From NCBI GenBank assembly GCA_905339295.1, contig CAJPFI010000035.1, positions 1-64,000 of the forward strand: a DNA stretch of 64,000 nt, written 5' to 3'. The position numbers and the translations under genes were made by a program. This DNA is from Burkholderiales bacterium (GTDB lineage: Bacteria; Pseudomonadota; Gammaproteobacteria; Burkholderiales; Casimicrobiaceae). The notes under the pieces were generated by a model, which was not told where the DNA came from, ran no database searches, and saw only the letters and a list, made by a program, of their open reading frames with translations. Shown here in pieces: positions 65 to 3,257 of this stretch; the first letter of the stretch is position 1, and each line of letters begins with the position of its first letter.

Positions 65-927
65 CACGGCCGGATACAGAGTTGCAGTCTGTCCTTCGTC
101 AACGCGATCAAGCTTGCATTTCCGGGGAAGTCCATACAGCCGGGTTAGCGCTCATTTGGCACTTGCACTGCAGCTGAGGCCAAGCTCATGTCCATGTTCA
201 TTACCCGTTGAAGTCCATACTTCGTCTCGAGGTACTTCAGGACAGCAGCTTCGTCACGGCGGTCAATGTCAGTGTCGGCGATGTAGGCCTCACCCGCCCT
301 TTCGTCCGCCACGGGGTCGATCAAGCCGTGCTTGAAGTGCCTGGCATAGGGAGAATCACGTAGCGCCTCCCAGTTGGGCGAGTATGGATTGAGGCACAGC
401 TTCACCGTGACAGAGTTGCCGTTGATGAACGCTGCTACCGCGCCATCCAAATGCTCTTTGAAACGAAAGAAGTCACCATTACGAAAGAAGTAGCATTGCT
501 TCATGACGGAATGGTCCAGCTCGAAGATGCGAGTGGACCCATACAACGTGGCCATAAACTGGAAGTGTTTAGCTTCGCCATCGTACCCACTGCCCGTGAA
601 CCAAAGAATTCGAAGGTCATGTGGAGTATTGCGCGATGTCGATGACAGCTGTGATGCCGCTTTTCGGACGATGCCGGAGATTCTATTGTTGTGGGTGAGC
701 GGCAGGACGGACCCATGAACTTCACCAGCGGCGAATGCGGCTGCGCGTGCAGCTAACGCCTTCGGATCGTCGAACTTCAGCTTTTCTTCAACGAGTAGGC
801 GAGAACCATCAAGAACTGCCAACCAGTCAGACTCCTCGTCACTTGATGTCGGCAACGGATCGACCGTTGCGCCCCATTGCGCGAGGACTTGGGCGGCAAC
901 TGATATGTCGCGGTCCAAGAGCGCTAA
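65..927 (-). mobile_element. Integron gene cassette 2 (left end tentative)
   Basis: The cassette starts at T927. Its own R'' box, GAGCGCTAAC at 153-144 on the minus strand, is an exact complement of its first ten bases GTTAGCGCTC. That fixes the cassette identity and places its attC from 153 leftward. The best R' candidate is GTTGGGT at 65-59, which fits the GTTRRRY consensus and would give a 95-bp attC, but I could not find a convincing L''/L' pair, so the left end is provisional. Confidence 0.6.
145..918 (-). CDS. Integron cassette 2 protein of unknown function
   Basis: Unrecognised soluble protein of about 257 residues. The open frame extends upstream to 984, but that part is the attC site of the previous cassette, so I start at the TTG at 918, only nine bases inside the cassette (first residues after the start DRDISVAAQVL). 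Cassette genes often start this close to the recombination point. No signal peptide, membrane segment or repeat is visible; the middle is fairly rich in aromatic residues (KHFQFMATLY, QCYFFRNGDFFRF). The stop codon TAA is part of the next R'' core site. Its base composition is visibly less GC-rich than its neighbours, as is usual for cassettes. The function is unknown. Confidence is good that it is a real gene and moderate for the start. Confidence 0.75.
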   Translation of the reverse strand: MDRDISVAAQVLAQWGATVDPLPTSSDEESDWLAVLDGSRLLVEEKLKFDDPKALAARAAAFAAGEVHGSVLPLTHNNRISGIVRKAASQLSSTSRNTPHDLRILWFTGSGYDGEAKHFQFMATLYGSTRIFELDHSVMKQCYFFRNGDFFRFKEHLDGAVAAFINGNSVTVKLCLNPYSPNWEALRDSPYARHFKHGLIDPVADERAGEAYIADTDIDRRDEAAVLKYLETKYGLQRVMNMDMSLASAAVQVPNER

Positions 928-1017
928 CGTCCGAGTTGAGCGGCCCGCCGCCGCCGCCGCAGCCACGAAGAACAAACCTCGCATCGGCGGGTCCGCTCGA
1001 ACGCGGGGTTAGAGCGC
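919..1017 (-). other. attC recombination site of integron cassette 1
   Basis: Read on the minus strand the site starts with GCGCTCTAAC (R''), followed by L'' TTCGAGCGG. About 50 bases later come L' CCGCTCAA and R' GTTAGCGCTC. L'' and L' are complementary apart from one unpaired base, the normal attC asymmetry. The site is about 99 bp, inside the usual attC range. The recombination point is between G928 and T927. R'' is exactly complementary to the first ten bases of its own cassette at 2133-2124, as expected for a circularised cassette. Orientation agrees with the integrase at 2286. Confidence 0.85.
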
Positions 1018-1105
1018 ATGCGTGCCCATTTTCACGGCGAAGTGCTTCGAGTACGGTCACCACGCGCGATGCGTGAACTGCCCCGACCGCCAAGAACACA
1101 TAGTC

Positions 1106-1972
1106 TCACCGCGGCAGCTTCTCGATCACCGAGCCGAGAACCCGATTGAATCGCTCGGGGTCTTCCATCATGGGAAAGTGGCCGACGCCCGGCATGAGCA
1201 CGACCTCGACGCCGTGGCGCTTCAGGGATTCGAAGTCGGTGGGCGGGTGGTCCGGGTTGATCGCGATTGTGGGCAGCTTGAGGTCGGCCAGCGCGGCCGG
1301 CATCTCGCGGCCGTTGCTGAACACCGAGACCATTGCCGCCAGCGCAATCTCCTTCGGCGCCGACGACATGTCCGCCGCGATCCACTCGACGAGGGACTTG
1401 TCGGCCGTCGCCGGAAACATGCCGCGGACGAAAGCGCGCGTTCGCTCCGTGAAGTCGACGCGGAACGGCGCGACGAACGCCTCGATACGCTCGGCCGTCG
1501 GCGGCGCATCGAGCTTCCTGTAAACATCGACCCACACCAGGCCCGCGACACGGCCACGCAGGCGCCGAGCCGCTTCCACGATCACGTCGCCGCCCATCGA
1601 GTGACCGATAAGGATCACGCGTTCGATGCCGAGCTTTTCCACCACCGCCGCCACGTCCGCTCCGAACGCCGCGATCGTCCACGCCTGTCGGTTCGTTCCC
1701 GACTCGCCGTGTCCCGCAAGGTCGATCGCGACGACGCGGTAGCGCCGGCCCAGCGGCTCGAGCTGGCCCTTCCAATACGTGCGGTCGCACGACCAGCCAT
1801 GGACGAAAACCAGCGCGGGCGTTCCGGCGCCGTGCGCGTCGTACGCGATCGCGACGCCATCCGCGGAAGCCGCGCGACCCTGCGCCGCATGCGCCGGCGA
1901 AGGATCACCGGCCATCGAGCCTACGAACGCCATCAGCCACAACAATTGTGCGCGAGTTGGACGGGTGGACAT
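1106..1972 (-). CDS. Exported alpha/beta hydrolase, carried on integron cassette 1
   Basis: Alpha/beta-fold hydrolase of 288 residues. A signal peptide is visible (MSTRPTRAQLLWLMAFVGSM, probable cleavage after AHA near residue 34), so it likely acts in the periplasm. Oxyanion region FVHGWSCD, nucleophile elbow GHSMGGD and a C-terminal GVGHFPMMEDPERF histidine complete the expected serine hydrolase pattern; substrate unknown. The start at 1972 is supported by GGGAG six bases upstream and by the signal peptide directly after it. An upstream in-frame start at 2104 would put the signal sequence inside the protein. The gene overlaps the 3' end of the small cysteine-rich gene by 40 bases, which suggests translational coupling. 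Both lie in one cassette ending at the attC 919-1017. Confidence 0.85.
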   Translation of the reverse strand: MSTRPTRAQLLWLMAFVGSMAGDPSPAHAAQGRAASADGVAIAYDAHGAGTPALVFVHGWSCDRTYWKGQLEPLGRRYRVVAIDLAGHGESGTNRQAWTIAAFGADVAAVVEKLGIERVILIGHSMGGDVIVEAARRLRGRVAGLVWVDVYRKLDAPPTAERIEAFVAPFRVDFTERTRAFVRGMFPATADKSLVEWIAADMSSAPKEIALAAMVSVFSNGREMPAALADLKLPTIAINPDHPPTDFESLKRHGVEVVLMPGVGHFPMMEDPERFNRVLGSVIEKLPR

Positions 1973-2079
1973 TTCACACTCCCGAATGAGCAGAAGACGC
2001 AGCAATCGCCCTCGTACGGCCGCAGCAGCGCGTGGCAGCCCTTGCACTCGTAGTAATAGATGCATGCGTCGACGGGCAT
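1933..2079 (-). CDS. Small cysteine-rich zinc-ribbon-like protein (GDCCVFCS family)
   Basis: A 48-residue protein. It has a CxxC pair at residues 12-15 (ECKGCH), then GDCCVFCSFGSVKCPP with cysteines at 26, 27, 30 and 37. I recognise this as the small GDCCVFCSYG family, usually described as putative metal-binding or zinc-ribbon proteins of unknown role. It begins about 55 bases after the start of cassette 1 and is the first gene of that cassette. Its last 13 codons overlap the start of the hydrolase gene. The tail after CPP (VQLAHNCCG) is longer than I recall for the family and may reflect the overlap. The call rests on the motif; function is not known. Confidence 0.75.
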   Translation of the reverse strand: MPVDACIYYYECKGCHALLRPYEGDCCVFCSFGSVKCPPVQLAHNCCG

Positions 2080-2123
2080 TGTCTCCTCGGACGAAGCGCC
2101 GCACGCGCGTACCTATCTTTCAC

Positions 2124-2285
2124 GCGCTCTAACGTTAAGTGTGGCTCGAAAATGCCGGTATGCAATGGGGCGCTTCGGACGGGGTTGTCGCCGCTACTCG
2201 TCCGAACGGTCTATCGGAAGGCGAGAGGAAGTTCATGAAAATCACGTGACTGCTGCTCAGTTCGGGGGCCGAAAGGCTCTGTTCC
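2124..2285 (-). other. attI region of the chromosomal integron
   Basis: This gap lies between the integrase start and the first cassette. On the minus strand the sequence ends CACACTTAAC then GTTAGAGCGC, giving a core site cut at 2133/2132. Position between intI and the first cassette is where attI and the cassette promoter are expected. I could not assign the secondary integrase-binding sites or a cassette promoter by eye, and saw no LexA-type box here. Confidence 0.7.
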
Positions 2286-3257
2286 GTGGACGCCAGACCG
2301 CCTGTTACCCTGCTCGAGCGTGTCCGCGACCGGATCCGTCTCAAGCACTACAGCATCCGGACCGAGCAGGCGTATTGCGACTGGATTAGACGCTTCGTCG
2401 TTTTCCATGGCAAGCGCCACCCGTCCGGGCTCGGGGCGGCGGAGGTCGAGGCGTCCCTGACGTCGCTGGCGGTGGAGTGGCGGGTGGCTGCCGCCACGCA
2501 GAACCAGGCGAAGAGCGCGCTCCTGTTTCTCTACAAGGAGGTGCTCGGCGCCGAGCTGCCATGGCTCGACGACGTCGAGCGGGCGAAGGCGCCGGTGCGG
2601 CTCCCCGTCGTGCACACCCGCGACGAAGTGTCGCGCGTGCTCGCGCGGCTCGACGGCGTTCACCGCCTGATCGGCTCGTTGCTCTACGGCACCGGGCTCC
2701 GCATCATGGAGGCGATGCGGCTGCGCGTGAAGGACGTCGAGTTTTCGCGCCGCGAGATCCTCGTGCGCGACGGCAAGGGCGCCAAGGACCGCGTCACGAT
2801 GCTCCCGGTGCGGATCGTCGCGCCATTGCGCGAGCAGATCGCCCGTGCGCGCGAGCTGTACCGCGTGGACCTGGATGAGGGATGCGGCGCCGTCTGGCTG
2901 CCGTTCGCGCTCGACCGCAAGTACCCGGGCGCGGCCCGCGAGTGGGGCTGGCAGTACGTGTTCCCGGCCGGCTCGCGTTCGATCGACCCGCGCGACGGCG
3001 TCGAGCGCCGGCACCACCTGTCGGACCAGGTCTTCCAGCGTGCGATGAAGAACGCGGTGCGCGGCGCAGGCATCGCCAAGCCAGCCACGCCGCATACGCT
3101 GCGCCATTCGTTCGCCACGCACCTGCTCGAGTCGGGCTACGACATCCGCACGGTGCAGGAACTGCTCGGGCACGCGGACGTCGGCACGACGATGGTCTAC
3201 ACGCACGTGCTGAACCGGGGCGGGCACGGCGTCGTGAGCCCCATCGATCGCCCGTGA
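2286..3257 (+). CDS. intI: Integron integrase IntI (tyrosine recombinase)
   Basis: Site-specific recombinase of 323 residues that inserts and excises cassettes at attI and attC. The catalytic set is complete: Arg139 in [12 protein letters not shown], Lys164 or 167 region, His270 and Arg273 in [12 protein letters not shown], His296 in LLGHADV, Tyr305 in MVYTHV. The diagnostic IntI-specific insertion is present at about 208-247 ([13 protein letters not shown], then VFPAGS and [13 protein letters not shown]), which separates IntI from XerC/D-type recombinases. The N-terminal SAM-like DNA-binding domain covers about 8-90. The start is GTG with GAAAGG nine bases upstream; length is normal for IntI. 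It is divergent from the cassette array, the standard integron layout. There is no truncation or missing residue, so the enzyme is probably active. Confidence 0.95.

Follow-up and report, generated by a model that had tools for sequence, protein, structure and literature searches.

The first gene cassette of an integron at the start of the window (the whole 64,000-nucleotide stretch of DNA analysed here) contains an alpha/beta hydrolase gene that starts inside a 48-codon ORF of the GDCCVxC family. We favor, with a probability of roughly 55%, a reading of this arrangement as a hydrolase cassette carrying at its 5' end the truncated remnant of a GDCCVxC gene that lost its head at, or close to, the border of the cassette. 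Both borders of the cassette can be placed, the small gene is truncated while its 3' part is intact, and the hydrolase start and its SD lie within that part. The features involved are as follows.

928..2132, minus strand: whole integron gene cassette, 1,205 bp, the first of the array and adjoining attI
2133..2285, minus strand: attI region and spacer between intI and the cassette, holding the conserved junction sequence ...CCACACTTAACG that ends at the cassette border
2286..3257, plus strand: integron integrase IntI (TIGR02249, 469.5 bits), divergent from the cassettes
921..1014, minus strand: attC of the cassette, with R boxes CTAAC/GTTAG, a long L-box stem and an extrahelical base
1933..2079, minus strand: 48-codon ORF, a 5'-truncated GDCCVxC gene that begins at the family's invariant Met
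2080..2112, minus strand: untranslated in-frame remnant VRACGASSEET of the missing GDCCVxC N-terminus, directly behind an in-frame TAG and without ATG, GTG or TTG
2083..2088, minus strand: SD-like GAGGAG of the small ORF, formed by the Glu-Glu codons of the family's ...EETMP (anti-SD pairing -8.9 kcal/mol)
1979..1983, minus strand: SD of the hydrolase, GGGAG, inside the small ORF (Gly-Ser codons GGG AGT; anti-SD pairing -7.8 kcal/mol)
1106..1972, minus strand: exported alpha/beta hydrolase (predicted), 288 aa, ATG at 1972 and stop at 1106, Abhydrolase_6

One end of a contig (G000:C35) forms the start of the window, and the cassettes, on the minus strand, run leftwards from attI. An alignment of intI-proximal regions from integrons of the same genus placed the 5' border of the cassette between G and TTAGAGC, at base 2132; the same type of junction is present at two of these loci (L143 and L151) and a similar one at a third (L153). 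IntI matches were found in 12 of 22 genomes of the genus, counting the window's own. The 3' border is the GTTAGCG core of the cassette's own attC, which folds into the typical shape (window plus strand), with a z of only -1.4 in a stretch that is very rich in G+C. The junction at 2132 and the attC folding at 1014..921 thus delimit the cassette as 2132..928, with an attI-type junction beside intI and R and L boxes that fold on one strand, as expected of an integron cassette. There is no attC between the small ORF and the hydrolase gene, and both ORFs lie inside this one cassette. In the next cassette (145..984, minus strand), a 279-codon ORF has no NCBIfam match, a sub-threshold Pfam match and poor codon use (0.23) unlike that of the host; its first ATG (984) lies inside the attC of the first cassette, and a TTG just within the border is the likelier start. 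At another locus (L144), the cassette in first position codes for a member of the GFA family.

The small ORF is not a chance reading frame, since it scores 76.2 bits against the NCBIfam model NF041374 (GDCCVxC domain-containing (seleno)protein), for which the curated cut-off is 40. The match is limited to profile positions 16-56 of 58. Within it, all 17 family-invariant columns are kept and the GDCCVFCS motif is present, with nine cysteines in 48 residues. Profile positions 1-15 fall outside the ORF: about 23 N-terminal residues are gone, and with them the CPxCG knuckle, so the ORF is a truncated derivative and not a complete member of the family. Among 108 GDCCVxC relatives, 105 have CPxC on the N-terminal side of the ETMPTDAC stretch; in the remaining three the motif is altered by single residues. 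When the untranslated sequence was included, the family profile matched the window copy from position 7 (2106..1957), before the first possible start, while across 300 genomes surveyed from the order nearly all matches begin at position 1-3 of the profile. The small ORF itself starts 53 nt inside the cassette. By its sequence, then, the GDCCVxC gene is beheaded no more than about 35 nt from the border of the cassette, and translation of what is left would be possible only from the family's conserved internal Met. A longer product from another start was rejected, there being no ATG, GTG or TTG between the TAG and 2079, as was a selenoprotein, every Cys being encoded by TGC or TGT and the upstream stop being TAG.

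A full-length GDCCVxC copy from the same genome (C52, L002) was modeled with an N-terminal hairpin at a pLDDT of 77.6 and a pTM of 0.59, while the 48-mer, with the same alignment set, reached 50.6 and 0.26 and formed no helix or strand of at least 3 residues; the fold is thus predicted to collapse without the N-terminus. Foldseek returned weak similarities to the full-length model, none of them significant, with what we take to be zinc-ribbon proteins among the best. The family is known to NCBI, and a literature search by the GDCCVxC name or motif found no paper. Two further damaged copies were seen: one from the same order (L155, ~1690-1850) is broken, lacking the N-terminal part and having lost invariant cysteines, and another (L156, ~1460-1640) is split by a frameshift.

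The hydrolase matches Abhydrolase_6 at 92 bits (E 9e-26). Its GHSMGG nucleophile elbow and GHF motif are invariant in six relatives, as are Asp149 and His265, and the closest solved structures are the esterases 4uhc and 4uhh. The first 30 residues (MSTRPTRAQLLWLMAFVGSMAGDPSPAHA) resemble a signal peptide, with a positively charged n-region, LLWLMAFVG and AHA-AQ as read by eye, and the N-termini of relatives are likewise signal-like or lipoprotein-like. The ATG at 1972 has the strongest anti-SD pairing of the in-frame starts; upstream starts at 2104, 2065, 2047 and 2005 were rejected because their SDs are weaker and their N-termini not signal-like.

An earlier note on this DNA had described two overlapping same-strand ORFs in a single cassette, with the ribosome site of the hydrolase inside the small gene. 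Both observations hold: strands and coordinates agree, the overlap spans 40 bases (1933..1972), and GGGAG lies at 1983..1979, six nucleotides from the ATG. None of 93 GDCCVxC relatives has GGAG, GAGG or AGGA at this place, and 78 of them have an ATG or GTG in the shifted frame at the conserved Lys-Cys codons. In the predicted mRNA the hydrolase SD is partly paired (unpaired probability 0.1-0.5) and the ATG mostly open.

Codon choice changes sharply along the small ORF. Codons 2-30 are host-like, with a relative adaptiveness of 0.68, as in good genes, while codons 31-48 have an adaptiveness of 0.14, a value as low as which is found in 0.4% of reference windows (permutation p 1.5e-4). The poor codons (TCA, AGT, AAA, TGT, CCA, CAA, AAT, TGT and TGT) are synonymous choices only, at conserved residues. 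Together they create the SD, change the GTG that AAG-TGC holds in the shifted frame to ATG, and place Trp, not Arg, in the hydrophobic stretch of the hydrolase. Random synonymous recoding with host codon use produced the SD, the ATG and an open frame in 0.09% of trials, or in 3.8% when GTG was also allowed. Poorer choice is common at gene starts generally (adaptiveness 0.16-0.94 in reference genes and 0.12 in the hydrolase), so the bias in codons 31-48 supports the hydrolase start and is weaker support for a current function of the small ORF. The overlap region thus appears, from its codons, to be shaped for the hydrolase start while the residues of the small protein are kept. As this shaping is purely synonymous, we infer that the overlap probably predates the truncation and formed when the small gene was still under constraint. 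Decay of the small ORF is not visible in the 17 invariant columns.

To see whether the two genes are associated elsewhere, we searched for relatives of the hydrolase in samples of the family (64 genomes), order (399), class (369) and phylum (398). Leaving out the window's own locus, the small gene was upstream of a hydrolase relative at none of 16 loci. A second copy of the gene pair, which the earlier note had proposed to seek in other cassette arrays, was found neither in these samples nor in the family of G085, and viral contigs and plasmids held no close relative of the hydrolase. That note had also held that absence of the small ORF from close homologues would count against its idea; the ORF is indeed absent from the relatives at hand, of which the nearest in the genome samples searched (L091) is only 55% identical, so the result applies to distant relatives. 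At that locus (1062..2322), the hydrolase start falls within the end of a GFA-family gene that lies upstream and contains cysteines. The locus was rejected as a second integron copy, with no integrase and no convincing attC nearby.

Viewed from the other gene, metal-resistance-type neighbors (MerR/MerT/MerP/CadR/P-type ATPase-like) are present at 55 of 111 GDCCVxC loci, as in a Pseudomonas plasmid with the order merR-merT-merP-GDCCVxC. To judge by these neighborhoods, GDCCVxC is likely an accessory of metal resistance; we found no mention in the literature of the family beside mercury- or cadmium-type genes. Some of the metal-gene-adjacent copies (among loci L002-L082 and L112-L141) sit in Tn3-type transposons. 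A similar hydrolase is near a GDCCVxC gene at only one of the 111 loci, in the same genome as the window (L002, 514..1668), where another alpha/beta hydrolase gene ends ~100 bp ahead of a full-length GDCCVxC gene, without overlap. This pairing can be chance, because hydrolases of this kind are common, with 14 matches in the genome.

The remnant reading, which we prefer, would run as follows. The two genes would once have overlapped in a chromosomal operon, of which a segment cutting into the first gene would have been captured as a cassette, whose working cargo would be the predicted exported serine hydrolase. Since neither a donor operon nor a second copy of the cassette was found, we infer this history from the cassette itself. 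The fragment would still be translatable because GAG GAG ACA ATG (Glu-Glu-Thr-Met) happens to form a ribosome site and a start. A cassette in first position is expected to be transcribed from the integron side, as is established for integrons, and here transcription would come from the integron promoter, with the hydrolase translated from its own embedded SD. A simple consensus scan found no promoter-like site; we counted this against the remnant reading, as we did the position of the stop 37 nt past the hydrolase ATG, a poor geometry for simple termination-reinitiation. Ribosomes starting at 2079 would traverse and unfold the hydrolase start region, so that the small ORF would have at most a leader role; its 48-residue product is probably without a function of its own.

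The earlier note had proposed that the small gene is a translation leader, and its own SD together with the embedded hydrolase SD is compatible with this. A stricter version, in which the ORF is maintained purely to load ribosomes and unfold the hydrolase start, its peptide being irrelevant, is possible but on balance unlikely. The two SDs, the partial pairing of the second with a mostly open ATG, and the precedent of ORF-11 (PMC8876359) speak for it. The hydrolase, however, has an adequate SD and start itself, a pure leader would have no need to retain every invariant residue, and the 40-nt overlap sets the stop far beyond the hydrolase start: with 37 nt between the hydrolase ATG and that stop, simple termination-reinitiation is less natural than in ORF-11. 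The opposite case, a recent pseudogene fragment that is not translated at all, with the hydrolase expressed from its own SD only, would account for the beheaded gene and for the in-frame TAG before the remnant, and high intactness would fit a recent event; yet a good SD and start remain, in a first-position cassette where transcription is expected, and we consider this improbable.

The note's other proposal, that the small protein acts with the hydrolase, for example as a metal-binding or redox partner of a periplasmic enzyme, fared worse. It would make the 48-residue product a functional minimal GDCCVxC protein, selected together with the hydrolase, and it could point to the 17 invariant residues and nine cysteines and to an overlap that departs from host codon use only synonymously. 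Were it true, the Lys-Cys codons with their shifted-frame ATG or GTG (78/93 relatives) would be a ready-made start for an overlapping operon, and the cassette would be dual-coding. However, the ORF has lost the N-terminal knuckle and its fold is predicted to collapse, and the pairing is not conserved (0/16 and 1/111 loci). No signal peptide is evident in the small protein, which should therefore stay in the cytoplasm and not meet an enzyme that is predicted to be exported, and this makes a periplasmic partnership unlikely. We judge such a partnership very doubtful. That all 17 invariant residues survive, where the broken copy at L155 has lost invariant cysteines, does count against the remnant reading: the fragment may be retained because of the protein it encodes, or it may be recent.

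Each part of the cassette resembles something known. The window's GDCCVxC copy shares the GDCCVFCS motif and the invariant columns with NF041374 and differs in its missing knuckle; relatives stand alone or beside mer/cad-type genes, not ahead of this hydrolase. The enzyme shares Abhydrolase_6, GHSMGG, Asp149 and His265 with exported alpha/beta hydrolases such as the esterases named above. Cassettes with more than one ORF have been described as occasional (PMC12409362), and in the first-position cassette of one integron of the same genus (L151, DUF4160/DUF2442) the second ORF likewise starts inside the end of the first, though both of its ORFs cover almost all of their family profiles, unlike the small ORF of the window. 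Aid to the first cassette by the leader ORF-11 is a known mode in class 1 integrons (PMC8876359). The attI1 leaders ORF-11, ORF-17 and ORF-18 are, as here, small ORFs that have a good SD and precede a cassette gene in first position (PMC8876359), but they begin in attI1 and serve cassettes in which an SD is lacking or supplemented, whereas the window's small ORF begins outside attI and is contained entirely within the cassette, comes from a protein family, and overlaps a gene that has an SD itself. A cassette in which a truncated upstream gene overlaps the cargo gene is unusual, but no new kind of system.

As a readable case in which the first gene of a cassette was beheaded near the border, leaving a translatable fragment before the real cargo, it bears on the birth of cassettes and on the expression of genes without their own promoter, and it warns that co-occurrence in a cassette does not equal functional partnership. 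For the GDCCVxC family, it indicates that the part without CPxCG can survive without the loss of a single invariant residue, and the family's frequent place beside mercury- and cadmium-type genes is now recorded. A further ORF was seen in the third frame (1974..2165, minus strand), running from a TTG at 2165 in attI, with a GTG also available within the cassette. It may be a mere shadow frame of the high G+C content; its TGA stop is separated from the hydrolase ATG by a single base (TGAAATG), which suits termination-reinitiation better than the geometry of the GDCCVxC ORF does.
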